From the NCBI GenBank assembly GCA_015711795.1, contig JACVJC010000012.1, forward strand, positions 1-64,000: a DNA stretch of 64,000 nt, written 5' to 3'. Within the stretch, counting starts at the first letter, position 1, and every line of letters begins with the position of its first letter. The stretch comes from Candidatus Geothermocultor quzhuomuensis. Lineage in GTDB: Bacteria > Actinomycetota > Aquicultoria > Geothermocultorales > Geothermocultoraceae. The notes below the pieces were generated by a model, which saw nothing but the letters and a program-made list of their open reading frames with translations, was not told the origin of the DNA and did not search any database. Shown piece by piece: positions 5,912 through 64,000 of this stretch. A program made the position numbers and the translations under genes.

Positions 5912-6871
5912 TTAGCTACGTTTGACTCTGGTTAAGCCAGAACAAGTCAGAATTTTTACTCCTCGCTTTTCAACTTGGTCAAGGAAAAGATTAAGCCCGA
6001 TATTATCTGAAGCAATATGACCAGCAATTATCACATTTACCTTTGATTCTTCAGCTTTCTTTTTTAATTTATCCCCCATATGCATACAAACTAAAGTGCC
6101 TACCCCAGCTTGAGCCAATTTTTCAATTGCTCCTTCTGGACCTTCAGTGCCACCAGTCATATCAACCATTATTTTTCCAGCTCTTTTCTCTGAATCACCC
6201 ACCAAAATGGTAGGACCAGCATTCTCATAGGATGCCCCCTTATATTCAGGAATTTTTTTAAGAAAATCAACCACCTCTCCCACTGTCTCTAAGGAATTTT
6301 GATCAACTTGCTTTTGCAAAAAATTGCTGACTAGGTTATCAGCTGGTGTATGAACGCTCATATAAGCAAAGTTAAGGAGACGGGCAGCATCAATTGCCCT
6401 TGCATGATTAACTGGTAAAAGGGAGCGGAAAACTTCTTTAGCTCTTTCACTAATTAAAACATCACCAATATTAATTGGCACACCGAATTTATGCCAGATA
6501 TCAGCTTGGAGTCCCATAACCTCATGAAGAGCTGCTAAAGCCTTTCCTTCTGGATGATGAGCTAAAAGCAAATCAATTTTTTCGCCTTTTTCTCTTAGGC
6601 GGTCAGCCAAAACAACTTCTCCAACTTCCAAATCAATCCCAGCTAAGATTCCCTTTACCTCAATCTCGGGGTCACCCGCCAAAACTCTAGTATCAGCATA
6701 GGGATTTTTAAGTTTATCTTTATCGAAAAACTTTTTATCTCCTTTATCCAGTTTTTGATAATCTTTTCTTGCCTTTTCTAAAACTTTTTTAACTTCCTTC
6801 CTTCCTCGAGGATCAGCCTCAACCCCCATCTTAATAGCTAACTCATAGATTTCTTTTAATTTCATTTTCAC
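5912..6871 (-). CDS. NIF3-like (NGG1p-interacting factor 3) family protein
   Basis: This 319-residue protein belongs to the NIF3/YbgI-like family of putative dinuclear-metal proteins; the physiological role of the family is unsettled. Visible family features are the ILAGIDL strand, the metal-ligand motif LLLAHHPEGKAL in the first half, and a C-terminal block with TLVCMHMGDKLK, NVIIAGHIASDNIGLN and a final TCSGLTRVK. The central part matches the long form of the family. An N-terminal extension of about 55 charged residues precedes the core. A 3-methyladenine glycosylase follows it on the opposite side of a short gap. Metal-dependent hydrolase activity is inference. Confidence 0.8.
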   Translation of the reverse strand: MKMKLKEIYELAIKMGVEADPRGRKEVKKVLEKARKDYQKLDKGDKKFFDKDKLKNPYADTRVLAGDPEIEVKGILAGIDLEVGEVVLADRLREKGEKIDLLLAHHPEGKALAALHEVMGLQADIWHKFGVPINIGDVLISERAKEVFRSLLPVNHARAIDAARLLNFAYMSVHTPADNLVSNFLQKQVDQNSLETVGEVVDFLKKIPEYKGASYENAGPTILVGDSEKRAGKIMVDMTGGTEGPEGAIEKLAQAGVGTLVCMHMGDKLKKKAEESKVNVIIAGHIASDNIGLNLFLDQVEKRGVKILTCSGLTRVKRS

Positions 6872-47493: not shown

Positions 47494-49008
47494 TTACTGC
47501 TCACTATCTAAAATTGCTTTAACTAAACCATCAACGGTATATTCTTTCGCCACTATTTCAACTTTAAATCCAAGGTCTTTAGCAGTCTTAGCAGTAATAG
47601 GCCCAATACAAGCAATTTTTGCTCCTTTAAATACCTTCCTCAAGTTAGCTCGTTCTTTCACCAACTTTACAAAATTCTTAACCGTTGAGGAGCTAGTAAA
47701 AGTGATAAAGTCAACCTTTTTCCCTTTCAATCTTTTAACTGCCATTTCGACTTTTCCTTCGTCTGCTACCGTTTGATAAACAGAAACCACATCAATTTGA
47801 GCTCCCATTTCTTTAAGTTCCTCAGGCAAAACCTCCCTTGCTTCTTTAGCTCGAGGAAGAAGAATCCTTTTGCCTCTAATATCTTCTCTTTTAAATCCTT
47901 CAGCCAATGCCTCAGCCTTATATTCCTCCGGAAGATAATCGATTGAAAAGCCTAAATTTTCTAAAGCCTTGGCAGTAGCAGGACCAATAGCGGCTAGCTT
48001 TATCCCTTTTAGCTCCCTCAAATCCCGTTTTAAATCACGCATTCTTTGGAAAAAGTATTGGACACCATTAACACTGGTAAAAATGAGCCAGTTGTAACTT
48101 GACAAATTCTCAATTGATTTATCAACTTGAGCAAAGCTCTCAGGCGGGATAACCTTAATTACTGGAAACTCGACTACTTCAGCTCCCAATTCTTCAAGCC
48201 TTTCGGTTAAATTAAAAGTTTGAGCCTGAGGGCGGGTAGTGACAATAATTTTGTTAAAGAGCGGTTTATTCTCAAACCAATTAAGTTTATCTCTTAAAGA
48301 AACCACTTCTCCGACAACAATTACAGCTGGTGGTTTAAACTTTTTCTCCTTTACCTTTGGGATAATATCCTTCAAAGTCCCGACTAAAGTTTCTTGACTT
48401 CCTCTCGTTCCCCAACGAATTATCGCTATAGGTGTATCTGGCGAAGAACCATTTTCCATCAGCCGTTTAGTAATAAAAGAAAGATTATTTAATCCCATTA
48501 AAAAAACTAAAGTCCCTATTGAAGCTATCTTTTTCCAGTCTATTTCAGCATCGAGCGTATTAGTAGTTCCGTGCCCGGTAAGAACAGTTAAAGTTGAAGT
48601 GTAACCTCGCTGAGTAACAGGAATCCCAGCATAAGCAGGAACAGCATAGGCTGAAGTAACACCAGGAATAACCTCAAAAGGAATACCTACCTTGACTAGT
48701 TCTAAGGCTTCTTCTCCCCCCCGGCCAAAAACAAAGGGGTCTCCTCCCTTTAGTCGAACAACCATTTTCCCTTCAAGACTCTTCTCAACTAAAAGTCGGT
48801 TAATTCTTTCCTGGTCAATGTGGTGAGCCCCGGGTGCCTTTCCAACATAAATAAGCTCTACTCCCTCTTTAACATAAGACAAAAGTCTTGGGTTGACTAA
48901 ACGGTCATAAATTACTACATCAGCTTGCTTGAGACAATTAAGACCTTTTACTGTTATTAGCCCAGCGTCACCTGGACCTGCGCCAATCAGATAAACTTTT
49001 CCTGACAA
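47494..49008 (-). CDS. cobA-hemD: Uroporphyrinogen-III C-methyltransferase / uroporphyrinogen-III synthase fusion
   Basis: One 504-residue polypeptide combines SUMT (residues 1 to ~245; VYLIGAGPGDAGLITVKGL, VRLKGGDPFVFGRGGEE, GIPVTQRG) and HemD (about 250-504; IIVTTRPQAQTFNLTERLEE and TFTSSSTVKNFVKL). HemD closes the uroporphyrinogen-III ring; SUMT adds two methyl groups toward precorrin-2, siroheme and corrinoids. The fusion is common in Clostridia and Actinobacteria. It follows hemC by a single base and is the last gene of a hemA-hemC-cobA/hemD run. Confidence 0.96.
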   Translation of the reverse strand: MSGKVYLIGAGPGDAGLITVKGLNCLKQADVVIYDRLVNPRLLSYVKEGVELIYVGKAPGAHHIDQERINRLLVEKSLEGKMVVRLKGGDPFVFGRGGEEALELVKVGIPFEVIPGVTSAYAVPAYAGIPVTQRGYTSTLTVLTGHGTTNTLDAEIDWKKIASIGTLVFLMGLNNLSFITKRLMENGSSPDTPIAIIRWGTRGSQETLVGTLKDIIPKVKEKKFKPPAVIVVGEVVSLRDKLNWFENKPLFNKIIVTTRPQAQTFNLTERLEELGAEVVEFPVIKVIPPESFAQVDKSIENLSSYNWLIFTSVNGVQYFFQRMRDLKRDLRELKGIKLAAIGPATAKALENLGFSIDYLPEEYKAEALAEGFKREDIRGKRILLPRAKEAREVLPEELKEMGAQIDVVSVYQTVADEGKVEMAVKRLKGKKVDFITFTSSSTVKNFVKLVKERANLRKVFKGAKIACIGPITAKTAKDLGFKVEIVAKEYTVDGLVKAILDSEQ

Positions 49009-49009
49009 C

Positions 49010-49951
49010 TTAACCTCCAGTTGAAAATTTTTCCCGTACTTCTTTTAAAATCTTATCGGCTCCCTTTTTAAGCAAATCTTCTGCTAAGGAAATCCCTAAT
49101 TCTTCTGCCTTTTCCGACTCTCCTCTTATCTCTCCTCTGATTAGTTTTTCACCATTTAAGGAAGCAACCATAGCTCTTAAAATCAATGAATTATCACTAA
49201 CTTGCCCCAAAGCTCCAATGGGAACTTGGCATCCACCTTCCAATCTTTTCATCAATGACCTTTCAGCGAAAACAGCCAATCGCGTTTCCTTATCATCAAT
49301 TTGGGAAACTAATTCCAAAATTTCTTTATCGTCATCTCTTGTCTCAACTGCAATTGTCCCTTGACCAACTGCTGGAAGCATTATCTCAAGTGGCAAAATC
49401 TCAGTTGCCCGATCCAGCCAGCCCATTCTTTTAAGCCCAGCTGCCGCTAAGACCATTGCTTCAAATTGACCCTCTGCCATCTTTTTCAAGCGAGTATCAA
49501 GATTCCCTCTAACATCCACAATTTTAAAATCAGGTCGGAAATTTAAAAGTTGCGCTTTTCGCCTGAGACTACTTGTTCCAATTACTGCCCCTTGAGGCAA
49601 ATCTTTAAGATGAACACTATTAGCTGAAATTACAACATCCCTCGCGTCTTCCCTTTTAATAACAGATGCAATTGTTAAGCCTTTAGGAATTTCAGTCGGA
49701 ACATCTTTCATTGAATGAACAGCTAAATCTATTTCCCTTTTCTCCAGTGCAACCTCAATTTCTTTAACAAAAAGGCCCTTGCCTCCAATTCTAGCTAAAG
49801 GGGAGTCTAATATTTTGTCCCCCGTCGTTTTAATTTTTTTAATGTTAACGGTTAAAGAAGGAAAAATTTCTTTTAGTAGTTTGGCTATGAGATTAGCTTG
49901 CCAAAGAGCTAAAACACTTCCACGACTACCAATAACTAATTCCCTTCTCAA
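49010..49951 (-). CDS. hemC: Porphobilinogen deaminase
   Basis: HemC joins four porphobilinogen units into hydroxymethylbilane. The 313-residue protein has IGSRGSVLALWQANLI at the start, KTTGDKILDSPL, AVHSMKDVPTEIP, GTSSLRRKAQLL and the dipyrromethane-cofactor Cys in RLEGGCQVPIGA (about residue 241). It overlaps hemA by four bases and precedes the cobA-hemD fusion. Confidence 0.97.
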   Translation of the reverse strand: MRRELVIGSRGSVLALWQANLIAKLLKEIFPSLTVNIKKIKTTGDKILDSPLARIGGKGLFVKEIEVALEKREIDLAVHSMKDVPTEIPKGLTIASVIKREDARDVVISANSVHLKDLPQGAVIGTSSLRRKAQLLNFRPDFKIVDVRGNLDTRLKKMAEGQFEAMVLAAAGLKRMGWLDRATEILPLEIMLPAVGQGTIAVETRDDDKEILELVSQIDDKETRLAVFAERSLMKRLEGGCQVPIGALGQVSDNSLILRAMVASLNGEKLIRGEIRGESEKAEELGISLAEDLLKKGADKILKEVREKFSTGG

Positions 49952-51240
49952 CCTTTTTTCCCCTCTTTTAATTCCTTGTGTTTTAAATCAAAAAGGTGGC
50001 GAAGGGATTCAACATAAAGATAACCATCTTTTTGGCAAGCTACCTCTTTGAGCTTAATAATTGGCTCATGAAGGAATTTATTAACTATCCCACTAGCCAA
50101 AGCATTAATCAGATTTTTTTCTTTTTCCCCAATATTTCCCAATTTTTTGAGATACTTTTCGAGTTGAGTAGCTTTGATTTCTTCTGCTTTTTCAATTAAC
50201 TCTTTGATGGTAGGGACAACCTCAAGAGTAGTTAGCCAAGTAGCGAAATCTTCAACTTTATTTTCCACAATCTTTTCTGCTTTTTCAGCTTCACGAGACC
50301 TTTCATCAATATTTGCCTTAACTACCGACTCCAAATCATCGATGTCATAAAGAAAAACATTGTAAAGCTTACCGACCTCAGGTTCAATATCCCTTGGAAC
50401 AGCTATATCGATAAAGAAAAGAGGCTTATTTTTCCTCATCTTCATCACTTTAATAACATCTTCTTTTTTAATTATGGGGAAGGGGGCACCTGTTGAGCTT
50501 ATAATTATATCGGCATTAACTAAATTATTGACTCTTTCTTCAAATTTAACAGCCTGACCGTTAAATTTCTCAGCTAACTCGACTGCCCTTTGGTAGGTCC
50601 GGTTAGTAACAAAAATTGATTTAACTCCGTTCGAAACAAGATGGCGAACTGTAAGTTCGCTCATTTCCCCAGCCCCAATAACCATAACAACTCGATCTGA
50701 TAAATCCTCAAAAACGGTTTTAGCCAGCTGAACAGCAGCATAACTAATGGAAACGGCACTCTCACCAATCTCCGTTTCAGTCCTAACTTTTTTACCGACC
50801 TCAAAAGCATATCGAAAGAGACGATTTAAAACTAAACTGGTTACTCCAGCCTGATAAGCATGGTTATAAGCCTCTTTGACCTGGCCTAAAATTTGAGGTT
50901 CACCGACCATCATTGAATCAAGACTAGAAGCAACTCTAAAAAGATGCTGGATTGCAGCCCTTTCGGTATAGAAGTAAAGATAATCAAGAAACTTTTCCTT
51001 TGGGATGCCTCGAGAGCGAGTGAGAAATTTTATTAATTCTTTTTTGCCTTCTTCTATATCACTACTCACTACACAAATTTCCGTTCGGTTACAAGTTGAA
51101 ATGATAACCACCTCAGCTAAATGAGGTTCTTGAATAAGGAGTTGTAAATATTCCTTAAGTTGATTCTCAGGAAAAGCCAAACCTTCTCTAATCTCAACTG
51201 GTGCTGTTTTATGGCTTAAACCTAAAATTAAGAGATGCAC
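49948..51240 (-). CDS. hemA: Glutamyl-tRNA reductase
   Basis: HemA reduces glutamyl-tRNA to glutamate-1-semialdehyde, the committed step of tetrapyrrole synthesis by the C5 route. The 430-residue protein begins MHLLILGLSHKTAPVEIRE, has the catalytic Cys50 in STCNRTEI, the specificity block AIQHLFRVASSLDSMMVGEP, an NADPH domain (VMVIGAGEMSELTVRHL) and a C-terminal dimerisation helix. Overlaps the preceding siroheme-synthase gene by 13 bases. Confidence 0.97.
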   Translation of the reverse strand: MHLLILGLSHKTAPVEIREGLAFPENQLKEYLQLLIQEPHLAEVVIISTCNRTEICVVSSDIEEGKKELIKFLTRSRGIPKEKFLDYLYFYTERAAIQHLFRVASSLDSMMVGEPQILGQVKEAYNHAYQAGVTSLVLNRLFRYAFEVGKKVRTETEIGESAVSISYAAVQLAKTVFEDLSDRVVMVIGAGEMSELTVRHLVSNGVKSIFVTNRTYQRAVELAEKFNGQAVKFEERVNNLVNADIIISSTGAPFPIIKKEDVIKVMKMRKNKPLFFIDIAVPRDIEPEVGKLYNVFLYDIDDLESVVKANIDERSREAEKAEKIVENKVEDFATWLTTLEVVPTIKELIEKAEEIKATQLEKYLKKLGNIGEKEKNLINALASGIVNKFLHEPIIKLKEVACQKDGYLYVESLRHLFDLKHKELKEGKKG

Positions 51241-51854
51241 TCCTCTACCCTCTTTCGAGCTTGATTTTCCTTCCCTTCTTTGAGATAGGTAAAAGCATCT
51301 GATTCAATTATTTTCCTTAATATTTTCCTACGCTCACTTGGGGAAAAAGACCTTTCTTTAATTTTTAATTCTACTTCTTTAAGTAATTTAAGAAACTTGG
51401 AATAATCGCTGACTAACTTTTCCTTCAAGTCCTCTTTAATTTTCTTAGAAAGAAGAGGATATTTACCCGAGGTTGAAATGCTAATAATTAAATCTCCTTG
51501 CTTGATAATTGAGGGGAAAATGAAATTTCCTAATTTAGGAGCATTAACAATATTAGTAAGCAAATTTTTTTTGAGAGCAACCTTGCTGACCCTTTGATTA
51601 ACTTCGAAATTATCGGTAGCCCCAATTACAAGGAAGCAATCCACAATATCCTCCTCTTCAAACTCTTTCCTTGACCACTCAATCTTGCCTTCTAAAAAAA
51701 GTTGGTGAAGATAACTGGTCAGTTTGGGACTTACCAATTTGACTTTTGCCCCGCAGCTAAGCAAAGAGGAGGCTTTTCTCTCAGCGATTCTTCCTCCACC
51801 AATAATTATACACTTCTTGTTCTTTAACGAAATATCTATCGGGAAAAAACTCAT
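51228..51854 (-). CDS. Precorrin-2 dehydrogenase (siroheme synthase N-domain type)
   Basis: A 208-residue protein of the Met8p/CysG N-terminal type, which oxidises precorrin-2 to sirohydrochlorin with NAD. Features: FPIDISLKNKKCIIIGGGRI, then AERKASSLLSCGAKVKLVSP and LLTNIVNAPKLGNFIFPS. It lacks a ferrochelatase or methyltransferase partner domain; the methyltransferase is supplied by the cobA-hemD fusion downstream. It overlaps hemA. Confidence 0.9.
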   Translation of the reverse strand: MSFFPIDISLKNKKCIIIGGGRIAERKASSLLSCGAKVKLVSPKLTSYLHQLFLEGKIEWSRKEFEEEDIVDCFLVIGATDNFEVNQRVSKVALKKNLLTNIVNAPKLGNFIFPSIIKQGDLIISISTSGKYPLLSKKIKEDLKEKLVSDYSKFLKLLKEVELKIKERSFSPSERRKILRKIIESDAFTYLKEGKENQARKRVEECIS

Positions 51855-51860
51855 TTTTCT

Positions 51861-52736
51861 CTAAAATCCCCGTCCCCAAACATGCATGCTCTTCAAGATG
51901 TAAGGAACGAAGTAAGTAAAAATAGCTGATAAATATCCGATAATGGCTAAAAAACTTCCTTTCTTCCCACGCCAGCCCATAACTTCCCAGGTAAAAAGGT
52001 AAACCCCATAGATTATCACCATTATCAAGGTTAAAACCATCCGAGGCTCGCGCCAATCCCACATCTTACCCCATTCCATTTGAGCGGTTAGCATTCCAGT
52101 TAAAAGTAAAATGACTGAAAAAACAAAGCCAACTGCTACTGCTTTAAAACAAAGCTCATCGGAAGATTCAAGAGAAGGAAATTTACGCCAAATTTGACTT
52201 GGATTCTTACTCCTTAATTGATGCTCCTGGAGAAGATACATAATAGCTAGAAAGGTAGCGATAGTGAAAGCACCATAAGCAATTAAAGCTGAAGAAACAT
52301 GAATAAAAACTCGAAAACTTTTAAGCTTAGGAGGAATTTCAGCCGAAACTTGATATGATTTCCAGGCAAACAACATCAGAGCAACTGCAACTGGCATAAC
52401 AAACATGCCTAGAAATCTTGTTTTTACCGCTTTAAATGAGTAAAGAAGTTCAATTAAGAGAAAAATTCCTATCACTGAAAAAGCAAAGAAGGTACGGGCA
52501 GTAAAGGGACCAGAAAAAGGATGGAGACCAACTCGAAACCAATGAATTCCTAAAAGAAGCAAAAGGAAAAAAAAGCTAATGGAAGCAGCAATACTACCCA
52601 GACGAATAAAGATATTCTCTTCCCTTCGAACAAAAAAATTTCTAATGTAAATTATTGAACTAACCCCTGCTAAAACAAGAGCTAACCAAAAAAGAATAAA
52701 TTCTAATCTTTCCACTAAAATCAACCTTTTTGCCAT
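51861..52736 (-). CDS. Cytochrome c assembly protein (CcsA/CcmC family)
   Basis: A 291-residue integral membrane protein with about eight hydrophobic helices. The family heme-handling motif is WGKMWDWREPRMVLTL (about residues 225-240), flanked by His residues in VFIHVSSALIAYGAFT and YILKSMHVW. It resembles the CcsA/ResC type used in cytochrome c maturation. No ResB partner is seen next to it; the neighbouring gene at 52863 encodes a related CcmC-like protein. Starts 7 bases before the siroheme gene in transcription order. Confidence 0.88.
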   Translation of the reverse strand: MAKRLILVERLEFILFWLALVLAGVSSIIYIRNFFVRREENIFIRLGSIAASISFFFLLLLLGIHWFRVGLHPFSGPFTARTFFAFSVIGIFLLIELLYSFKAVKTRFLGMFVMPVAVALMLFAWKSYQVSAEIPPKLKSFRVFIHVSSALIAYGAFTIATFLAIMYLLQEHQLRSKNPSQIWRKFPSLESSDELCFKAVAVGFVFSVILLLTGMLTAQMEWGKMWDWREPRMVLTLIMVIIYGVYLFTWEVMGWRGKKGSFLAIIGYLSAIFTYFVPYILKSMHVWGRGF

Positions 52737-52862
52737 TCATTATAGCACAAACACTTAAGAAATAATTTCCGAGCATAACAGGTAAGTCCAAAATTCCAAT
52801 AAAATTCTTGTAAATAAGAAGAAAGATTTATAGATTAACTAGCAGGCAAGCTGTTTAGCTGT

Positions 52863-53519
52863 TTAGCTGTTTAGCTGTTTACGCCAAAAAGTCGAGAGAA
52901 TAAAGCTAATGGAAAAAATGGTCAAAAAAATGGCGCCAAAGAAAACTTTTAATTCTAAGGAAGGAGAAGAACCAATAGCATTTTTAGGATGAAAAACGTC
53001 TTTGGTGGTAGCAAGGGCGACTAACACAGTTATTGACATAACAACATAAGCAATTGAAAGAAATTTAGGTTCACGGAAAAATTCTGAGAAAATTGCGAGA
53101 ACCAAAACACCAAATAAAATAATCAAGCTTGTTTTAACCTTTGGCTCGCTCCACAAAAAACCACCCCAGACCAGTTTCATAATCAAAGCCCCCAAAAGAG
53201 ATTGGACTATCCAGAGAGTAAAAGCCATCAACTCAAAAGCTTTTGACCAAGAGAAAAAAGACATTTTCTTTAAAGAAAAAAGAGCCAAAATACCAGCTAA
53301 AATAAAAAAAATAATGCCACTTTGAGCAATACTAGCATGAAAGTATATGAGTTTTACATTTGAACCTAAAGTTTCTTCAGCTGGAGAAAAGTAAAGAAGT
53401 AACATTAACAGAAAGGTAAGAGCTAATAAAAGAAAATGCTCTTTTTTCCAGTGTAAATTAGTACTTCTTTTATCTTGTTGCACATTCGCCCCCTCTTCCA
53501 GTAAGTATTTCAATAGCAT
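52863..53519 (-). CDS. CcmC-like heme-handling membrane protein
   Basis: About six hydrophobic helices and a divergent tryptophan-rich block, VWGGFLWSEPKVKTSLIILF, where CcmC/CcsA proteins have WG-x-W-W-x-WD. IYFHASIAQSGIIFFILAG and FHPKNAI supply candidate His ligands. The conserved part starts after a hydrophilic leader, and GTG at 53483 behind GAGGGGG is a better start than the ATG at 53519, which lies deep within the mog reading frame. Two such proteins in tandem suggest an unusual heme export pair. Substrate assignment is inference. Confidence 0.75.
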   Translation of the reverse strand: MLLKYLLEEGANVQQDKRSTNLHWKKEHFLLLALTFLLMLLLYFSPAEETLGSNVKLIYFHASIAQSGIIFFILAGILALFSLKKMSFFSWSKAFELMAFTLWIVQSLLGALIMKLVWGGFLWSEPKVKTSLIILFGVLVLAIFSEFFREPKFLSIAYVVMSITVLVALATTKDVFHPKNAIGSSPSLELKVFFGAIFLTIFSISFILSTFWRKQLNS

Positions 53520-53982
53520 GAAAAAGAACCGGCAAAACCACTTCTAAACATTCTCTCACCCCTTTAGGGCTACCCGGTAAGTTGATAATTAAAGTTTTTC
53601 CTCTAATTCCAGAGACAGCTCGAGAAAGCATGGCATGGGGAGTAAACTTCAAGCTAGATGCTCTCATTGCTTCAGCTAAACCTGGTGCTTGCCTCTCAAT
53701 AACTTTAAGGGTAGCCTCAGGAGTAACATCACGGGGGGAAAACCCTGTCCCCCCCGAAGTTAAAATTAAATCGACCTTTTCTCTATCGCAAAGATTAATA
53801 AGCTTCATCTTAATCATCTCTTCTTCGTCTGGGAGAATTTCATAATCAATAATTTCAGCTCCAGCTTCTTTCATCATTTTCAACGCAATCTTTCCACTCT
53901 CATCTTTTCTTTTTCCCTCATACCCTTTATCAGAAATAGTTAAAATAGCTACCTTCATCACTCCTCCATACATCCTGATCAC
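53470..53982 (-). CDS. Molybdopterin adenylyltransferase-type protein (MogA/MoaB)
   Basis: A 170-residue protein with the MoCF-binding fold: VAILTISDKGYEGKRKDESG, DLILTSGGTGFSPRDVTPEA and INLPGSPKGVRECLE. It would adenylate molybdopterin ahead of metal insertion by MoeA. The first eight residues are not conserved; MKVAILT, starting at 53958, is the probable start. It overlaps the following CcmC-like gene. Confidence 0.92.
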   Translation of the reverse strand: MIRMYGGVMKVAILTISDKGYEGKRKDESGKIALKMMKEAGAEIIDYEILPDEEEMIKMKLINLCDREKVDLILTSGGTGFSPRDVTPEATLKVIERQAPGLAEAMRASSLKFTPHAMLSRAVSGIRGKTLIINLPGSPKGVRECLEVVLPVLFHAIEILTGRGGECATR

Positions 53983-54040: not shown

Positions 54041-54505
54041 TTAATCCTGCTCTAAATCTACTATTGTTATGGGGTCCCCAACTTTAATTTCCCCACCCTT
54101 TACTACCTTCGCAAAAATGCCTTCTTTGGGCATCACGCAATCTCCCGCCTGGTAATAAATGGCACACTTAGTGTGACAAATTTTACCAATCTGAGAAACT
54201 TCCAACAAAGCATCCCTGCCAATTCTCATTCTTGTTCCAACAGGTAGAGAAATAAGGTTAACCCCTTCAGTAGTTATGTTCTCAGCAAAATCCCCTGGTC
54301 CTACCTTTAAACCCATCTTTTGCATCTTTTTAATGCTCTCAAGAGCTAAAAGGCTAACTTGCCGATGCCAGTCACCAGCATGAGCATCATCTTCAAAGCC
54401 ATAATTCACTCGGAGACACCCTTCTCCAACTGGCTTTTTCCGAACGCTCTTTTTCTTACTGACATTTACTGAAACAACTCGCCCCTTACCTTTCAGCATT
54501 TCCAT
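54041..54505 (-). CDS. MOSC domain protein
   Basis: A 154-residue single MOSC domain, as in molybdenum-cofactor sulfurase C-terminal proteins: KGRVVSVNVSKKKSVRKKPV, DDAHAGDWHRQVSLLALESI, FAENITTEGVNL and the Cys motif IGKICHTKCAIYYQAGDCVM. MOSC proteins bind the cofactor or deliver sulfur. It lies among moa/moe genes, which supports a role in final cofactor maturation. Confidence 0.92.
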   Translation of the reverse strand: MEMLKGKGRVVSVNVSKKKSVRKKPVGEGCLRVNYGFEDDAHAGDWHRQVSLLALESIKKMQKMGLKVGPGDFAENITTEGVNLISLPVGTRMRIGRDALLEVSQIGKICHTKCAIYYQAGDCVMPKEGIFAKVVKGGEIKVGDPITIVDLEQD

Positions 54506-54664: not shown

Positions 54665-55144
54665 CTAGTTTTTCCAAGTAAAGTCACCACTTTTTCCACC
54701 ACTTTTTTTAACCAAACGAACATCCCTAATGACCATTTTTTTATCGACTCCTTTACACATATCATAAATAGCAAGAGCAGAAGCTACGATCGCAGTTAAA
54801 GCTTCCATTTCCACTCCTGTTCTGTCCCTTGCCCTAACCACACTTTTGATTGAAATTGCTGAAGTTTCTTCTTTAAGTTTTAGTTCAACATCAATATGAG
54901 TTATCTTTAGAGGATGGCAAAGGGGAATTAGCTCAGGGGTGCGCTTAGCAGCCATAATTCCTGCAATCTTAGCAACACTTAAGACATCACCTTTGGGCAC
55001 CTTACCTTCTTTAATAAGGTTTAATGTTTCAGGAGCCATCGAGATTTCCCCTTGAGCAATTGCTTCTCGCAAGGTAACATCCTTCTGACTGACATCAACC
55101 ATTTTTGCTTTACCTTTCTCATCCAAATGGGTTAATTTTTTCAT
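54665..55144 (-). CDS. moaC: Cyclic pyranopterin monophosphate synthase
   Basis: MoaC converts the MoaA product to cPMP, the first stable molybdopterin precursor. The 159-residue protein shows THLDEKGKAKMVDVSQKDVT, AAKRTPELIPLCHPLKITHI and GVEMEALTAIVASALAIYDM, with KSGGKSG at the end. It follows moaA, giving the usual moaA-moaC pair. Confidence 0.97.
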   Translation of the reverse strand: MKKLTHLDEKGKAKMVDVSQKDVTLREAIAQGEISMAPETLNLIKEGKVPKGDVLSVAKIAGIMAAKRTPELIPLCHPLKITHIDVELKLKEETSAISIKSVVRARDRTGVEMEALTAIVASALAIYDMCKGVDKKMVIRDVRLVKKSGGKSGDFTWKN

Positions 55145-55228: not shown

Positions 55229-56200
55229 CTATCCTCCTATCTCACTCATTTTCTTTCCTTTCTTCCCTCGATGAGCCTTCCAACGATTTTTAGGTTTCCC
55301 GGCTATGGCTTCTCGAATAATTTTCTCTATCTCCTCGTCAGTTGCTCCTCTTCTCATTGGTGTCTTCAAATCAATCTCATCATCGGAAAAAAGGCACAGT
55401 CTTAAATGACCATCAGCTGTAATCCTTAAACGATTGCAAGAAGCACAAAAGTGTTCAGTATAGGGGAAAATAAATCCAATTGTCCCTTGAGCTCCTTTAA
55501 GCTTAAAATAGTGAGCAGGGCCCGAACCCTTAGGTGAATCAACATCTTCTAAGCTACTTCCCCGTAAAATAAGCTCCTTTGCTTCTTGACCAGAAAGGAA
55601 AAGGTTATCACGATTGGGCAAAAAATCCATTAATTCAATAAAACGAATATGAATCGGTAGCTTTAAAGTAAGTTTCGTAAATGACTCTAAATTTTCCTTA
55701 GACCCTTTTAATAAAACCACATTAACCTTAACTGGGTTAAATCCTTTCTCAATTGCTGCCATTACCCCTTTCCATGCCTGACTCAAGCTCCCTCCCCTAG
55801 TTATTCTTTTATAAACCTCAGGATTTAAAGAATCAAGGCTGATATTTATTCGTCTTAAGCCTGCTTCCCAAAGTTCATCTATGTAATCTTTCAAAAGAAT
55901 GCCATTAGTAGTTAAAGAAAGGTCTTCAATCCCAGGGAGAGAATTTAAAGAAGCAATAAGGGAAGGTAAATCTCTCCGCAATAAAGGTTCGCCTCCAGTC
56001 AAACGAATTCGAGAAATGCCCATCCCTAAAGCAATTTTAGCTAACCGTTCAATCTCCTCATAACTTAATATTTCTTCATGCCTTTTCCATTCTATTCCGT
56101 GATAAGGGATACAGTAAATACATCTTAAATTACAGCGGTCAGTTATAGCAAAACGTAAATAATTAATTTTTCGTTTATAAGAATCACGCAATTCCACCAA
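55229..56200 (-). CDS. moaA: GTP 3',8-cyclase (radical SAM)
   Basis: MoaA starts molybdopterin synthesis from GTP. The radical-SAM cluster is C23-x3-C27-x2-C30 (CNLRCIYC), with RLTGGEPLLRRDL. The C-terminal second cluster is CASCNRLRITADGHLRLCLF (Cys about 255, 258, 272). The final GG expected of MoaA is present (IGG at the C-terminus). It sits between moeA and moaC. Confidence 0.97.
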   Translation of the reverse strand: MVELRDSYKRKINYLRFAITDRCNLRCIYCIPYHGIEWKRHEEILSYEEIERLAKIALGMGISRIRLTGGEPLLRRDLPSLIASLNSLPGIEDLSLTTNGILLKDYIDELWEAGLRRINISLDSLNPEVYKRITRGGSLSQAWKGVMAAIEKGFNPVKVNVVLLKGSKENLESFTKLTLKLPIHIRFIELMDFLPNRDNLFLSGQEAKELILRGSSLEDVDSPKGSGPAHYFKLKGAQGTIGFIFPYTEHFCASCNRLRITADGHLRLCLFSDDEIDLKTPMRRGATDEEIEKIIREAIAGKPKNRWKAHRGKKGKKMSEIGG

Positions 56201-56235: not shown

Positions 56236-57471
56236 TTAATTCTCTTTTAAGCTGAATAGTTCCTGAGAAAGTAATTGGACCTTAACCACTTCGCCCTTTT
56301 TAACAAGTGATTTATCTTTAGGAATCAAGGCAATCCCATTCGCTTGAGAAAATGATTTTAAAACCCCAGAACCTTGATGTCCGCTTAATGAAGCATAAAA
56401 AGTTTCCCCCTTTTTTTGAACAAAAACGCGAGCAAAATTTAACCTACCAGGCTTTTTTTTGATATCCTCATTTAAAACCACTTCAATCTCTGGACGAAAG
56501 ATATCTTTTCTCCCCATCATTTTTAAGATAGAAGGCCTGACATACTCTTCAAATGCGATGAAAACAGCGCCTGGGTTCCCTGGTAAACCAAATAAAAATT
56601 TCTCTTGATAAGTAAAGAAAGCCAAAGGTTTAGCTGGCTTTTGAGCTACTTTCCAGAACTTCATCTCAGCTCCAATTTCCTCAATTGCCTCTTTAACAAG
56701 GTCATACTCGCCAACTGATACCCCTCCAGTAGTTAAAACTATGTCTGCTTCCTGAAGAGCTTTCCTAACTTTTTCTTTAATTTTTCCAATTTCGTCCGGG
56801 ACTACTCCCAAATCTAAGGGCTTAGCACCTACTTCAAGAATAAGTGACCAAAGAAGATAACTGTTGCTGTTCCTGATTTTACCTGGGGTAAGGGCCTCTT
56901 CTAAACCAACCAGCTCGTCTCCAGTAGTAATAATAGCAACAACTGGCTTTCTAAATACCTGCACTTTGCTCTGGCCTAAAGCAGCTAATAACCCTATTTC
57001 AATGGGGCGAATTTTTGTCCCTTTCCTTAAAACAAGCTCCCCGCTCTTAACATCTTCACCAGCCAATCTGATGTTTTCACCTTCTTTAAGCTCCTTGAAA
57101 ACTTTAACTTCGTCCCCTTCTTCTTGAGTAAATTCAACAGGAACAACACTATTAGCTCCCTCAGGAAGAGGTGCTCCAGTCATTATCTTAAGAGCAGTTC
57201 CTGAAGAAACCTTTCTTTGGCTAACCTTACCAGCAGGCTCGCTATCGATAATCTTGAGTTTAATAGGATTTGACTCACTTGCTCCTTTAGTATCTTCAAA
57301 ACGACAAGCAAAGCCGTCCATAGCGGAATTATCAAAGGGGGGCAAATTTAAAGAAGAATAAATATCCTCTGCTAAAACATAATTTAAAGCTTCAACTAAC
57401 CTTACTTCTATCCTGTCAAGCTCATTGACATTCTTAATGACTATCTCTCTTGCTTCCTCAAAATCAATCAT
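56236..57471 (-). CDS. moeA: Molybdopterin molybdenumtransferase (MoeA)
   Basis: MoeA inserts molybdate or tungstate into adenylated molybdopterin. The 411-residue protein has DNSAMDGFACR, MTGAPLPEGANSVVPVE, the MoCF domain TTGDELV and TGGVSVGEYD, and PAKPLAFFTYQEKFLFGLPG (domain III). Normal length. It follows the tungstate transporter ATPase by 15 bases. Confidence 0.96.
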   Translation of the reverse strand: MIDFEEAREIVIKNVNELDRIEVRLVEALNYVLAEDIYSSLNLPPFDNSAMDGFACRFEDTKGASESNPIKLKIIDSEPAGKVSQRKVSSGTALKIMTGAPLPEGANSVVPVEFTQEEGDEVKVFKELKEGENIRLAGEDVKSGELVLRKGTKIRPIEIGLLAALGQSKVQVFRKPVVAIITTGDELVGLEEALTPGKIRNSNSYLLWSLILEVGAKPLDLGVVPDEIGKIKEKVRKALQEADIVLTTGGVSVGEYDLVKEAIEEIGAEMKFWKVAQKPAKPLAFFTYQEKFLFGLPGNPGAVFIAFEEYVRPSILKMMGRKDIFRPEIEVVLNEDIKKKPGRLNFARVFVQKKGETFYASLSGHQGSGVLKSFSQANGIALIPKDKSLVKKGEVVKVQLLSQELFSLKEN

Positions 57472-57486: not shown

Positions 57487-58566
57487 TCATTCACGTTCAA
57501 TCAAATGAACTGCCGTGGCTTTAAAAGAAGCCCAGATTTCCTTTCCTTCAGCTAAATTTAGCTCTTCCAAAGCTGGCTTGGTAACAAAAGCAGCTAAAGG
57601 AAAACCCGCATCTAAAAAAACCTTATGAAAGTAACCAAAGGGAATTATCTTTTTAATTAAGGCTTTTACCTGATTGCGAGGGCTGGATTTATTTGGTTGA
57701 GCGCTCAAAACAACTTCTTCCGGTCTTAAACAAAGGATTACCTTCCTAGCTTGGCATTGAGCAGCCACCTCAATTTCCCCCTTACCAACAGCTACCTTAA
57801 CTAACCCATTATCTTCCCCAATAACTTTTCCTTCTAGGACTGTCTCAACACCAACAAAGCGCGCTACTTCCTCTGAAGCCGGGAAATTAAAGACTTCCTC
57901 TGGTTTTCCTTCCTGAACTAAATACCCATTAATTAAAATGCCTAAGTGGTCAGCCAGAAAAAGAGCCTCCTCTCGTTCATGGGTAACATAGACAACTGTT
58001 AAATTTAGCTGTCTGAAAAGTCTTTTTGATTCCAGAAGAAATTTTTCTCGACTTGGTGCATCTAGGTTAGCCAAAGGCTCATCGAGTAAGAAAATTAAAG
58101 GTTTGAGAACTAAAGATCGTGCCAAATTTACCCTCTGAGCTTCCCCACCTGAAAGAAGGTAAGCAGGAACATCAGCTAAATGCTCAATTTTAAGCCAAGC
58201 AAGGGCTTTATTAACCCTCTGCTTAACCTCACCAGGTTTAACTCCTCTAATCTTTAAGCCATATGCAACATTATCAAAAACAGTTGAGTTAAAAAGGAGA
58301 GATTCTTGAAAAACTAAGGACATTTGACGACGAAGTGAAAATCTTTGAGCTTTTCCTTCAACTAAATTACCTTGAAAGAAAATTTTCCCTTGAGTTGGAA
58401 ATTCAAGGAAATTTAACAAGCGAAGAAAGGTGCTTTTCCCAGAACCATTGGGACCTAAAATAACATAAATTTCACCTTGAGCAACTTCCCAATTAGGAAT
58501 ATTAAGAACAAATCTTTCTCCAAGTTGATATTTAAGGTCTTTTACCGCCAAAATGGTTTTGCCCAT
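57487..58566 (-). CDS. tupC: Tungstate/molybdate ABC transporter, ATP-binding protein
   Basis: A 359-residue ATPase with Walker A GPNGSGKST (residues 38-46), the signature LSGGEAQRV, Walker B FLLDEPLANLD and H-loop VTHEREEA. A C-terminal regulatory TOBE-like domain follows (about 290-359). The linked permease and solute-binding protein are TupB and TupA, so tungstate is the likely substrate. Overlaps tupB by 25 bases. Confidence 0.92.
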   Translation of the reverse strand: MGKTILAVKDLKYQLGERFVLNIPNWEVAQGEIYVILGPNGSGKSTFLRLLNFLEFPTQGKIFFQGNLVEGKAQRFSLRRQMSLVFQESLLFNSTVFDNVAYGLKIRGVKPGEVKQRVNKALAWLKIEHLADVPAYLLSGGEAQRVNLARSLVLKPLIFLLDEPLANLDAPSREKFLLESKRLFRQLNLTVVYVTHEREEALFLADHLGILINGYLVQEGKPEEVFNFPASEEVARFVGVETVLEGKVIGEDNGLVKVAVGKGEIEVAAQCQARKVILCLRPEEVVLSAQPNKSSPRNQVKALIKKIIPFGYFHKVFLDAGFPLAAFVTKPALEELNLAEGKEIWASFKATAVHLIERE

Positions 58567-59264
58567 TCAACCTTACCCCTTTGTTGAATATAAGATAAAA
58601 CCAAATTAACCAAAAAGGTTAAAGTGAGAAGAATTAAACTCAAGGCAATGGCAATTTCAAAATGTCCCATTCGAGTTTCCATCACAATAGCTGTGGTTAA
58701 AACTCTTGTCTGCCCTTTGATATTCCCCCCAACCATCATTACCGCTCCTATCTCTGAAATAACCCCACCAAAGCCAGCCATAATAGCTGCTAGTAAAGGT
58801 AATCTCGCTTCAAGAGCTAGTTTTACCACCATTTGAAAAGGAGTAGCACCTAAGGAAATAATTTGCCACCTCAGTTTGGGGTCAATGTGCTGAAAAGCAG
58901 CCATGGAAAGACCAGCCACAATAGGAAAAGCAATGATAACTTGAGCAATTACCATAGCCGTTGGCGTATAAAGGAGTTCCAGAAAGCCCAAAGGCCCACT
59001 TCGCCAAAGAAAGAGAGAAACTAAAAGACCAACCACAACCGGTGGCAAGCCCATTCCCGTGTTAACCAAAGCAATAGCGATTTGGCGCCCTCGGAAAGGA
59101 ACTAAAGCTAAAAAAACTCCTAAGGGGATTCCAATAAAAAGGGAAAGAAAAGTGGCTGTTCCTGAAACTTTTAGGGAAAGGAGGGTAATATCAATAATTT
59201 CAGGATTAAGAGAGAAAATCATTAATACTGCCTTTTTTAACCCTATCCAAATTAATTCCATCAA
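58542..59264 (-). CDS. tupB: Tungstate ABC transporter, permease protein
   Basis: A 240-residue binding-protein-dependent permease with about five helices and the EAA-type loop LRWQIISLGATPFQMVVKLA. MGLPPVVVGLLVSLFLWRSG is typical of the Tup/Vup permeases. It couples to the tupC ATPase, which overlaps it. Confidence 0.92.
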   Translation of the reverse strand: MMELIWIGLKKAVLMIFSLNPEIIDITLLSLKVSGTATFLSLFIGIPLGVFLALVPFRGRQIAIALVNTGMGLPPVVVGLLVSLFLWRSGPLGFLELLYTPTAMVIAQVIIAFPIVAGLSMAAFQHIDPKLRWQIISLGATPFQMVVKLALEARLPLLAAIMAGFGGVISEIGAVMMVGGNIKGQTRVLTTAIVMETRMGHFEIAIALSLILLTLTFLVNLVLSYIQQRGKVEWAKPFWR

Positions 59265-59343: not shown

Positions 59344-60180
59344 CTATTTAATTGCATCTTGAATAAAAAGGGGTTCGCTAAATTTATCTTTACCAAAATC
59401 TTTAATAATAGCCTGACCTTCAATGCCAGTAATAAAATTGACAAAATCTTGAGCTAGTTTACGGTGCACTTTGGGAAATTTTCGGGCGTTCACCACAATA
59501 ACACTATAGGCATTTTTTAGGTCCTCGCTCTCACCTAGTAAAATCTTGAGGCCAGTCCCCGCCCTAGTTGCTAAATAAGTTCCTTTATCAGTTAAAGTAT
59601 ATGCCCCTTTTTCGCTAGCAATTTTAAGGGTCTCAGCCATTCCTTGCCCAGTTTGAATATACCATAAACCACTAGGCTTGATTCTTGCCTCCTCCCAAAT
59701 TTTCATTTCTTTCCTATGAGTACCTGAATTATCAGCTCGAGAAGCAAAAAGAGCTTTTTCCCGAGCTATCCTTCTAAATGCCTCCTTTGCAGTTTTTGCT
59801 TTCTTAATTTGAGCTGGGTCAGTTGGAGGCCCTACAATAATAAAAAAGTTGTGCATAACATCCTTACGAACTTCGCCATAGCTATTAGCCATAAATTTCT
59901 CCTCATCTTCCCTGGAATGAACTAAAAGGACATCGGCGTCACCGCGCATCCCCATCTTTAAAGCTTCTCCCGTCCCAACAGCAATTACTTTTACCTTAAC
60001 ATGGTATTTTTTTTCAAATTTTGGAATAAGAACATCTAAAAGTCCGGTGTCCTGAGTGCTTGTCGTTGTAGCTAAAATTAATGTTTCTGGATTTTTACTT
60101 CCTTTCTTTTGAAAATTACAACCTGCTAAAACTAACACAAAAATGATTAAAAAACCAAAAAACCAAATATTTTTTTTCAG
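59344..60180 (-). CDS. tupA: Tungstate-binding lipoprotein, probable CTG start
   Basis: The extracellular solute-binding subunit of the Tup transporter. The signature ATTTSTQDTGLLDVLIPKFE and SRADNSGTHRKEMKIWEE (oxyanion contacts) identify TupA rather than ModA. Standard starts give only GTG at 60138, which would leave six residues before the lipid-anchor Cys of VLAGC. The full signal peptide, KKNIWFFGFLIIFVLVLAGC, is encoded upstream in frame. The only codon in the right place is CTG at 60178-60180, preceded by GGGGG at a normal distance and by an in-frame TAG. I therefore extend the gene to CTG. Confidence 0.9.
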   Translation of the reverse strand: MKKNIWFFGFLIIFVLVLAGCNFQKKGSKNPETLILATTTSTQDTGLLDVLIPKFEKKYHVKVKVIAVGTGEALKMGMRGDADVLLVHSREDEEKFMANSYGEVRKDVMHNFFIIVGPPTDPAQIKKAKTAKEAFRRIAREKALFASRADNSGTHRKEMKIWEEARIKPSGLWYIQTGQGMAETLKIASEKGAYTLTDKGTYLATRAGTGLKILLGESEDLKNAYSVIVVNARKFPKVHRKLAQDFVNFITGIEGQAIIKDFGKDKFSEPLFIQDAIK

Positions 60181-60291
60181 CTTCTACCCCCAACTTTTCA
60201 GCTCTTTAATCTTTTAACTTCCAACGCTTTATCACTGATTTTCTATTTTTAACTTTACCCCTTTACCTTAACCTCAACCTTAGCTTTGCTT

Positions 60292-60471
60292 TTAAAAGCA
60301 ACCCAACTCGCATGCGAATATTTTAATTCTCAATTGATTACAAGCATCTCCAACCAACTTAACTGAGACATTAAAATCTTCTGCAATTTTTCGGGCTTTG
60401 GGGCAAGAAATTTTACCGTCTTCAGCCTTTTCTTTAACCGCTTGCAGAATTTCCTCAGGAATATTTGACAT
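60292..60471 (-). CDS. Small conserved protein ending in a QLRIK...LGCF motif (59 aa)
   Basis: A short gene between the riboswitch-terminator and tupA. Its 59 residues begin SNIPEEILQAVKEKAEDGKI, then SCPKARKIAEDFNVSVKLVG (a compact helix-turn-helix-like arrangement) and end CNQLRIKIFACELGCF. I recall similar small proteins ending in xLxIKIxxCQLGCF from anaerobic Firmicutes near molybdenum or tungsten genes; I know no function. The Cys residues at positions 23, 44, 53 and 58 could bind a metal. Position as first gene after the riboswitch suggests it is co-regulated with the tungstate transporter. Confidence 0.7.
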   Translation of the reverse strand: MSNIPEEILQAVKEKAEDGKISCPKARKIAEDFNVSVKLVGDACNQLRIKIFACELGCF

Positions 60472-60532
60472 TTTTCACCTCTCAAAGTTAAAAGATTTAA
60501 AACAAATAAGCATTTTATTTACCCTTAAGACG

Positions 60533-60563
60533 AAAAAACGTGCTCCCATCAGGAAAGCACGTT
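60533..60563 (-). terminator. Riboswitch expression-platform terminator
   Basis: On the minus strand ACGTGCT and AGCACGT form a seven-base stem with an 11-base loop, followed by TTTTTT. It sits immediately after the riboswitch candidate and about 60 bases before the 59-residue gene, so it would stop transcription of the tungstate genes. Confidence 0.8.
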
Positions 60564-60574
60564 TCAAAGAAATA

Positions 60575-60660
60575 AGCTTTAAATTTAACTCTCCTTTCCA
60601 AAATGGGAGGCATTAGAGTTTCCCCTGATACCCTACCGGCTATTCTCCATAGCATTAACT
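60575..60660 (-). promoter_or_regulatory. Molybdenum/tungsten-cofactor-type riboswitch (Moco/Tuco motif)
   Basis: The minus-strand RNA contains, in order, a small hairpin GCTATGGAGAATAGC, CCGGTAGGG, GGGGAAACTC, GCCTCCCATTTTGGAAAGG and AGAGTT. The elements GCCTCCC and GGAAAGG and the closing stem AACTCT/AGAGTT match the conserved core of the Moco RNA motif as I remember it; the Tuco variant is the tungsten form. It is followed by a terminator and then tungstate uptake and cofactor genes, the expected target. Binding and sign of regulation are inference. Confidence 0.65.
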
Positions 60661-60712
60661 TTAGGAAAAATAGCTCGGAGAGAAATATATTAAATATTTC
60701 AAAGAACTTAAA

Positions 60713-60943
60713 TTACCCTTTCTTCTTTTTCCGGGCGACTTTTTCTTTTTCCTCCTCTTCCTCCTCTTCCTCGTCTTTACCTTCAGAAGTCTTACGAAGC
60801 TCCCTTATCGTTCTACCTATAGCCTTGCCCATCTCTGGTAATCTTTTAGGACCAAAAATAAGAAGAATAACAAAAAGAATTATTCCCAGTTCAACAGGGC
60901 CTAGTCCAAACAATCCAATTGCTATAAACATTAGCCTCCTCAC
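60713..60943 (-). CDS. tatA: Twin-arginine translocase subunit TatA/TatE
   Basis: A 76-residue protein with one N-terminal membrane helix (LGPVELGIILFVILLIFG), the FGPKRLPEMGKAIG amphipathic helix and a long acidic then basic tail (EEEEEEEEKEK). TatA forms the pore that exports folded cofactor-loaded proteins. Its location between MobA-FdhD and the tungsten operon suggests that it serves export of a formate-dehydrogenase-like enzyme. Confidence 0.93.
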   Translation of the reverse strand: MRRLMFIAIGLFGLGPVELGIILFVILLIFGPKRLPEMGKAIGRTIRELRKTSEGKDEEEEEEEEKEKVARKKKKG

Positions 60944-61047
60944 TTCCCTCTGTCTTTCTCATTACTTAATATAAGCTTTTAAACTATACCAATCTTTGAG
61001 GAAATTTGCAACACCTAGCTTAAATTTCAAACGCCCATAATAGTTCT

Positions 61048-62400
61048 TCAGTTTTCAGCTACCAATCTCTCCTTGTGAGTATAAACAACCATATTCTTCC
61101 CCCGTACATAACCAATTATTGTTAACTTATATTTTTTGCCCAGTTCAACTGAGGCATCAGTTGGAGAAGAAAGTGAAACAATTATGGGCAAGCGAGCCCT
61201 TATTGCTTTAAGAAGCACCTCAGATGAGATTCTTCCCGTAGTTATCAAGATTTTTCCCTCCATTAATTTTCCTTTTAATAAGCAATCTCCAATTACTTTA
61301 TCAACACTATTATGTCTTCCAATGTCCTCCTTAATTGAAAGAATTTTCTCACTTGAAGAGATAGAAGAGGAGTGAATCCCTCCACTTTCTCGATATAAAG
61401 AAGCGCTTTGCGTAGTTTCCTTAACTAGCTCAAAAATTTTAATTGGTGAAACCTTAAAAGAATCCTTCACTTGAGTTAAGATTTTTTCATTAAAAGAAAA
61501 GGTAAAGCCTCTTCCGCAACCCGAGGTTAAAATCCGCCGTTGGAGTCGAGGAAAGGAAATTTTTTTCCTAACTTTAACCCAAATATAATAATCAGCATCG
61601 ACACTTATCTCTTTAATCTCATCAACCTTTTCAATAATCCCTTCAGTAAAGAGAAAACCAATTGCCAATTCTTTAAGGTCTCTTGGCGTAGCTGAGAGAG
61701 TAACCAGCTCTTTTTCGTTTAAAATGATTGTTGCCCCTCGTTCTTCAGGCAAATTTCGATTAAATCTTTTGCGAGCTTTTTTCCTGCTTATAATGGGTTT
61801 CAAAGCTACTTCTCTTCCCGCAATTGCTAAAGCTTTTTGATAATCCCCATCAGTATTGATATTGAAAAATGACAACAATTCTGGGTCATACTTTCTTACC
61901 TCTTCCTCATCAACATATTTAACATTTACATCAGAAAAAAAAGAGATAACTTTTCGCTCTCCTTCCTTTACTTTCTTTTCTATCGCTTTAAGGCAGCTTT
62001 TAGAATAAAAGGCAAAAAGTGGTTCTGGCTTTCCATTTAAAAAAGGAACAACTACATCAAAATCCTCTCTTTGGCTTGCTAAGAAGTTTATTAAATCAAG
62101 ATTTATGAAAGGCATATCCCCAGCAACAACAAAGTTCCAATAAGAACTGGAAGCTTTGAGTCCGCTTAAGATACCTCCAAGGGGACCAAAATAAGGAAAA
62201 TCATCGAAAACAACTTTTGCTAAATCTATTTTTTTTAAAGGTTTTTTGTTGACCACAAAAATTATTTCCTTTGAGACCCGAGCTAGCTTTTCAACTTGAA
62301 TTTCCAAAATATTCTTACCCTTAATCTTTAAGAAGGGTTTGTTTTTGCCAATCCTTTCCCCTTTACCTCCACCCAAAATGATTAAGGAAAACCCCACCAT
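61048..62400 (-). CDS. MobA-FdhD fusion: molybdopterin guanylyltransferase plus sulfurtransferase
   Basis: The N-terminal ~190 residues match MobA (LIILGGGKGERIGKNKPFLK, then FDDFPYFGPLGGILSGL, VVAGDMPFINLDLI), which attaches GMP to molybdopterin. Residues ~195-450 match FdhD: RGATIILNEKELVTLSATPR, ELAIGFLFTEGII, TSGCGRGF, SGGIHSS and KEDIGRHNSVDKVIGDCLL. FdhD transfers sulfur to the cofactor of formate dehydrogenases. The usual CxxC is reduced to a single Cys in SGCG, as in many FdhD proteins. Fusing guanylation and sulfuration in one chain is uncommon and ties both steps to the same enzyme. Confidence 0.93.
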   Translation of the reverse strand: MVGFSLIILGGGKGERIGKNKPFLKIKGKNILEIQVEKLARVSKEIIFVVNKKPLKKIDLAKVVFDDFPYFGPLGGILSGLKASSSYWNFVVAGDMPFINLDLINFLASQREDFDVVVPFLNGKPEPLFAFYSKSCLKAIEKKVKEGERKVISFFSDVNVKYVDEEEVRKYDPELLSFFNINTDGDYQKALAIAGREVALKPIISRKKARKRFNRNLPEERGATIILNEKELVTLSATPRDLKELAIGFLFTEGIIEKVDEIKEISVDADYYIWVKVRKKISFPRLQRRILTSGCGRGFTFSFNEKILTQVKDSFKVSPIKIFELVKETTQSASLYRESGGIHSSSISSSEKILSIKEDIGRHNSVDKVIGDCLLKGKLMEGKILITTGRISSEVLLKAIRARLPIIVSLSSPTDASVELGKKYKLTIIGYVRGKNMVVYTHKERLVAEN

Positions 62401-63297: not shown

Positions 63298-64000
63298 TTA
63301 CTTAAATATCTCATTTAGTTCTGTTTTAACAGTATCAGAGATAGCTCCTGTTCCCCCTAAGATAAAGATGTTTTGAATGGTTAGTTTGTTTTGAGTGATG
63401 AAATCTTTAGAAATTTGAGATAAAGCTTCTTTTTTAGTTAAAACTAAGGGAGATGAAAGTTTAGCTCCCAAAGCTCCACCAGCTAAAGCATCAGGGAAGT
63501 TTTCACCAGTTGCCAGAAGTATCTTAGCTGAGGTCATCCCTTGAGAAAGAGCATAAGAAGCAATTTCTATTGCTGTTTGGTATCTATCTTGACCTGAAAT
63601 TCTTGTTGGTGAAGGTAAGCTTGATTGGAGAGATGAAGAGATAACACCAGTTCCACCAACAATTATTGTCTTTGTAATTGAAAGCTCTTGTAAGACTTCT
63701 TGAGTTGATGAAGGAATTGAGTCTTTCTTAGTAAGTAATATAGGTATATTTTTATAAGCAGCTAAGGAAGAAATTGCTAAGGCATCAGGATAGTTAGCAC
63801 CTGTTGCAATAATAGCTTCTCCTTTTAAAGAACCAAGTTTTTCTTTTAGTTTGCGGGCAATGTTTGAAGCTGTTTCATATCTATCTTTGCCACTTATTCT
63901 TACAATAGTTAAGCCAAGGGAGGCAAGTTTATCTTCAACCCCTGAAGAAATAGCACCAGTCCCACCTAAGATAAAGGCATTTTTTGCATTAAGTCTTTTT
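63298..64000 (-). CDS. Cell-wall-binding repeat 2 protein, C-terminal part (cut by window edge)
   Basis: The frame is open from the window edge (first full codon at 63999) to a stop at 63298-63300. It carries about three cell-wall-binding type 2 repeats, each with GGTGAISS or GGTGVISS, SGKDRYETA or SGQDRYQTA, and ATGANYPDALA or ATGENFPDALA. This domain anchors surface proteins to anionic cell-wall polymers in Gram-positive bacteria. The N-terminal functional domain lies outside the window. It is the intact relative of the decayed repeats at 19310-20040. Confidence 0.93.
   Translation of the reverse strand, partial: KRLNAKNAFILGGTGAISSGVEDKLASLGLTIVRISGKDRYETASNIARKLKEKLGSLKGEAIIATGANYPDALAISSLAAYKNIPILLTKKDSIPSSTQEVLQELSITKTIIVGGTGVISSSLQSSLPSPTRISGQDRYQTAIEIASYALSQGMTSAKILLATGENFPDALAGGALGAKLSSPLVLTKKEALSQISKDFITQNKLTIQNIFILGGTGAISDTVKTELNEIFK

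Follow-up and report, generated by a model that had tools for sequence, protein, structure and literature searches.

The sequence analysed, hereafter termed the window, comprises 64,000 nt from Candidatus Geothermocultor quzhuomuensis (positions 1-64,000 of contig JACVJC010000012.1, assembly GCA_015711795.1). The locus of interest lies on its minus strand, where the order is rex, a mobA-fdhD fusion (61048-62400), tatA (60713-60943), a riboswitch aptamer, a gene encoding a 59-residue protein, denoted p59 (60292-60471), tupA (59344-60138), tupB (58542-59264), tupC (57487-58566), moeA (56236-57471), moaA (55229-56200), moaC (54665-55144), a gene for a MOSC-domain protein (54041-54505) and a mog/moaB-like gene (53470-53982). 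The fusion, tupB, tupC, moeA and the MOSC gene were assigned from profile matches, tatA from its open reading frame and a profile match, and moaA from a score above the NCBIfam cut-off, whereas moaC and mog were named from their sequences and the conserved gene order. An earlier note, made from the letters of the window, had placed a 59-residue protein, tupA-B-C and moeA/moaA/moaC downstream of a Moco-like RNA: the 59-codon frame is there, and the genes that follow it are as described. After mog, cytochrome c assembly and haem-synthesis genes continue on the same strand (47494-53519), possibly as part of one long operon. The edges of the window are occupied by the 5' end of a 16S rRNA gene (1-386) and by repeats, named from sequence, that resemble cell-wall-binding repeat 2 (63298-63999).

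An Rfam covariance scan of the whole window gave a match to RF01055 (Molybdenum/Tungsten riboswitch aptamer) at 60692-60575 of the minus strand, with a score of 80.8 bits, against a gathering score of 36 bits, and an E-value of 5.4 × 10−18. The cmscan alignment spans positions 1-135 of the model, and, therefore, the aptamer is complete; no second copy was found in the 1.76-Mb genome. The sequence motifs on which the earlier note had based its assignment to the Moco family, namely, GCCTCCC (60611-60605), GGAAAGG (from 60599) and a closing stem, are all present on the minus strand, and the two checks that it proposed, a covariance search with RF01055 and folding, were both positive. Only its boundaries need correction: the interval 60292-60660 takes in the 3' part of the aptamer, but cuts off the 5' 32 nt (60692-60661), which hold the 5' strand of P1 and the start of P2.

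The RF01055 alignment contains P1, P2, P4 and P5 around the conserved junction. P1 is formed by CTCTCC (60677-60682) and GGAGAG (60589-60594), as placed by the alignment and by folding, whereas P2 (60639-60674) and P4 (60608-60634) are additionally supported by compensatory pairs. P4 is capped by a GNRA tetraloop, GAAA (60622-60619), and P2 carries a tetraloop-receptor-like bulge, CCTAAA...TATGG, which is close to the usual CCTAAG...TATGG. The two helices are connected by a 3-nt GGU linker (60635-60637) in place of P3, the columns of which are deleted in the alignment. Fourteen P3-less relatives, mostly from the same class, could be aligned with the window aptamer, and RNAalifold recovered P1, P2, P4 and P5 from them, with compensatory changes in 13 of the 28 pairs. 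The conserved core is intact with the exception of one commonly varied position, an A for the usual G after CCUCCC, and this substitution is shared with L121 and L131. The full-length model match, the conserved junction, the four helices, the GAAA tetraloop and the position ahead of cofactor and transporter genes (here tupABC, moeA, moaA and moaC) are all features of the Moco RNA motif (PMC2408646), from which the window aptamer differs by the A after CCUCCC and by the lack of P3, the latter being likewise a property of the known Tuco subtype. Judged by sequence and fold, the window RNA is thus confirmed as a well-formed member of the known Moco/Tuco riboswitch class.

Between the aptamer and p59 lies an intrinsic terminator, identified by a terminator scan and by folding: a hairpin of 13 pairs followed by a T run (60565-60535, minus strand). 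It is the sole terminator-like site within 60200-61100, and it bears out the clean terminator of the earlier note. A match to the tpke11 sRNA over this hairpin was rejected as a chance likeness of a terminator (23.7 bits versus a cut-off of 43). Within the hairpin, CTTTCCTGATGGGAG (60543-60557) is complementary to CTCCCATTTTGGAAAG (60594-60609) in the 3' core of the aptamer; a duplex test and folding, together with relatives in the case of the core, mark these as the putative 3' and 5' arms, respectively, of an antiterminator. The predicted duplex has an energy of -22.4 kcal/mol, compared with a mean of -8.3 kcal/mol for random hairpins matched to the real terminator in base pairs and loop letters (p 0.002); this control was preferred to a z-score for the whole-downstream duplex because GC-rich loci gave uninformative shuffles. 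The same complementarity reaches p<0.05 in 9 of the 14 class loci that have a terminator (Fisher 7 × 10−11) and in 18 of 40 loci of a phylum sample (Fisher 4 × 10−16), although these combined values exaggerate the evidence, since the loci are related and non-independent. Given that the aptamer core is conserved, the stronger point is the covariation of the terminator, the letters of which follow changes in the core: CCCAU/AUGGG in the window, CCCGU/ACGGG in L016 and CCCGUAC/GUACGGG in L049.

The last of the tatA codons lies just 20 nt ahead of the aptamer, which is followed by a good terminator hairpin; it could, therefore, be argued that the element is mainly a constitutive terminator for tatA, in which an aptamer motif persists after sensing has been lost. 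We regard this as very improbable: the core is intact but for one commonly varied position, the terminator matches that core beyond chance, and the arrangement is retained in several families. The reading that we favour, and consider probable, is that a P3-less (Tuco/Wco-type) riboswitch attenuates transcription of p59-tupABC-moeA-moaA-moaC-MOSC-mog through alternative antiterminator and terminator structures, with the tungsten cofactor as its ligand. Under this attenuation model, when the cofactor is scarce, the 3' core of the aptamer (60609-60594) would pair with 60557-60543 as it emerges, the terminator would be blocked and the polymerase would read through, thereby allowing tungstate import and pterin synthesis; when it is plentiful, P1 and P4 would be stabilized, the core would be occupied, the 60565-60535 terminator would fold and transcription would end.

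Folding is compatible with such a mechanism. In the computed structures, the antiterminator is exclusive with both the aptamer and the terminator, and for a nascent chain ended at 60543 the antiterminator pairing is preferred. Constrained folding gave -42.8 kcal/mol for the consensus aptamer plus terminator and -47.2 kcal/mol for the antiterminator, compared with -48.9 kcal/mol for the free minimum, in which the terminator is formed; the gaps between these alternative states are smaller than the error of the method. Within that error, the consensus aptamer appears to be less stable than either alternative when no ligand is bound, which fits a structure whose formation is paid for by ligand binding. 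The leader is, therefore, predicted to act as a transcriptional OFF switch. With terminator arms complementary to an aptamer element, and folds that are mutually exclusive, it shows no basic difference from transcription-terminating OFF riboswitches in general; in the window, the 5' arm of the antiterminator is the aptamer's own conserved 3' core.

The switch probably lies within an operon rather than at its head. A promoter-like site is found ahead of tatA (61011-60983), such sites being only weakly above chance in that scan, whereas a consensus promoter was sought between tatA and the aptamer and none was found; for this reason, we favour transcription that starts ahead of tatA and reads through, and tatA and the aptamer would share one transcript. 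The order tatA-aptamer-p59-tupABC-moe-moa, with a P3-less aptamer, is kept in L032-L034 and L036. In L035, the order is similar and the aptamer again lacks P3, but p59 precedes it.

The choice of ligand rests on the P3 helix and on the genes under control. The presence or absence of P3 divides the Moco-family RNAs, with 58 of 176 lacking it, and 17 of 19 organisms having P3-less RNAs also carry tungsten-cofactor genes (Regulski et al. 2008, PMC2408646). The same study did not obtain direct binding of either cofactor to the RNA, Moco and Tuco being unstable, and could not exclude a protein factor; terminator expression platforms are, on the other hand, established for the family (PMC2408646). 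The window leader shares with the Tuco (Wco) subtype the 3-nt linker replacing P3, a tungstate-type transporter downstream and a terminator platform. The earlier note had suggested the tungsten-cofactor variant from the position of the RNA before a tungstate transporter. The missing P3 now supplies a structural basis for that suggestion, but relatives of the window weaken it: in L043, L044, L045, L046 and L047, which belong to the same class, a single P3-bearing aptamer stands ahead of tupA, counter to the rule that P3-bearing RNAs accompany Moco genes only. With P3-bearing aptamers before the same tupABC in sister lineages, the P3 rule is weaker in this class, where P3 status may be unable to tell the metal. 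The tungsten cofactor is accordingly a plausible ligand from the sequence, and the same RNA, with the same attenuation, might instead respond to the molybdenum cofactor, or to both cofactors without discrimination. The loose coupling of aptamer type to operon speaks for this alternative, whereas the clean loss of P3, the 17 of 19 organisms cited above and the nature of the transporter speak against it; we consider it rather unlikely, albeit the most serious competitor.

The transporter is itself divergent. TupA matches a solved tungstate-binding protein (PDB code: 3lr1) with an E-value of 3.5 × 10−75, and both TupA and the permease TupB fall under the NCBIfam equivalog cut-offs (219.1 versus 400 bits and 160.9 versus 320 bits, respectively); the system is completed by TupC, an ATPase with a TOBE domain. 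From these matches, we take tupABC to encode a divergent TupABC-like system and a putative tungstate transporter. It is the sole Mo/W-type uptake system found in the genome: the only other SBP_bac_11 match is probably phosphate-specific, as it lies beside genes that read as pstC/A/B and phoU. Elsewhere in the genome there is a gene for a formate dehydrogenase alpha subunit (L077 2952-5645; G000:C17), with an in-frame TGA at the place expected for selenocysteine and, when this codon is read as Sec, a score of 920.8 bits to TIGR01591; it adjoins a gene for a 940-residue NuoF-like/NADPH-GltA-like protein, and a second formate dehydrogenase-like protein is encoded at a contig edge (C32). A search of the genome for the AFOR_C domain of AOR-family enzymes found none, which sets it apart from the Tuco subtype, as does the fact that its relatives have aptamers of both kinds, with and without P3, ahead of this operon. 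With this family not found, the selenocysteine formate dehydrogenase is the likely client of the cofactor. Formate dehydrogenases can hold either Mo or W, and both this versatility and the lack of an AOR-type enzyme, which would be obligately tungsten-dependent, are to be counted in favour of a molybdenum or indiscriminate ligand.

The small protein encoded directly after the terminator belongs to a recurrent family. Relatives of p59 occur in 20 of 36 class genomes (20 of the 26 near-complete ones), with C23, C54 and C58 invariant and a CxLGCF motif at the C-terminal end. Among 397 genomes sampled from the phylum, p59 is present in 59, of which 56 also have a listed RF01055 match, and in 43 genomes of that sample the two lie within 10 kb of each other on one strand; p59 thus represents an unnamed family that nearly always co-occurs with Moco RNAs. 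An AF2 model (pLDDT 83.6) comprises three helices and a small β-hairpin, from which a helix-turn-helix fold is predicted, and a Foldseek comparison of the model with solved structures gave no significant match (best E-value 0.77). Pfam PF24655 (DUF7645) aligns with residues 7-45 of p59 (E-value 4.1 × 10−5) and stops ahead of the CxLGCF tail; it was rejected as an assignment, as it scores 23.9 bits versus a gathering value of 27, and other members score lower still. In genomes of the Geothermincolia type (L002, Candidatus Solincola quzhuomuensis, and the majority of L094-L103), p59 forms the C-terminus of an open frame with a P-loop domain; the family member in L002 spans 6001-6174. MobB was considered for the P-loop part and dropped (Pfam E-value 0.07, with no solved homologue). 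Plasmid-borne copies of p59 were looked for and none was found.

Its genomic context suggests a role for p59 in Mo/W cofactor handling. Expression might even be set by a protein sensor, with p59 as one candidate, that binds the leader RNA or DNA, making the RNA a target rather than a direct sensor of the cofactor; the predicted helix-turn-helix, the frequent adjacency to RF01055 and the protein factor left open by the founding paper (PMC2408646) would all fit. We consider this improbable, because direct sensors typically have a large, conserved RNA core of this kind and because p59 is missing from most RF01055 genomes outside the p59-bearing groups. It is, to our knowledge, also absent from organisms in which the Moco RNA family works, such as Escherichia coli.

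In some relatives, both aptamer types occur in one leader. L040 (3001-3146 and 3216-3334) and L041 (3001-3150 and 3293-3412) have a P3-bearing aptamer with a terminator, followed by a P3-less one that lies near the tupA start and lacks a good terminator, whereas the series in L104, L107 and L110 runs from a P3-bearing aptamer through p59 to a P3-less aptamer. Part of a review on tandem riboswitches gives Moco and Wco tandems separately, with no mixed ones in that part (PMC9481103). These mixed tandems, whether they stand ahead of tup genes or on both sides of p59, may constitute a two-metal gate. Extending this idea, we offer only tentatively the proposal that p59, as a new kind of small protein, handles the cofactor or has a regulatory role in partnership with Moco/Tuco riboswitches, and that, in parts of this phylum, the mixed tandems act as a two-metal NOR gate. 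If so, a tup operon under a mixed tandem would be expressed only when the Mo and W cofactors are both low, and the lone P3-less switch of the window would be one version of a control module whose forms are interchangeable.

Whether P3-less Moco RNAs sense the tungsten cofactor is a question that has stood since 2008. The riboswitch class is known, and the new detail lies in the window member and in the complementarity between its terminator and core. The locus lends itself to a simple test, as it combines one P3-less aptamer with a clear terminator, and no Mo/W-type uptake system other than tupABC was found in the genome. The mixed tandems of relatives would allow Mo/W discrimination to be tested inside one leader, and the recurring p59 family points towards a so far unstudied part of the metabolism of the tungsten or molybdenum cofactor. 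As a minor observation, L045 contains, at 9913-9931 of the minus strand, downstream of its full aptamer and terminator, a partial repeat of the aptamer P4 and 3' core.
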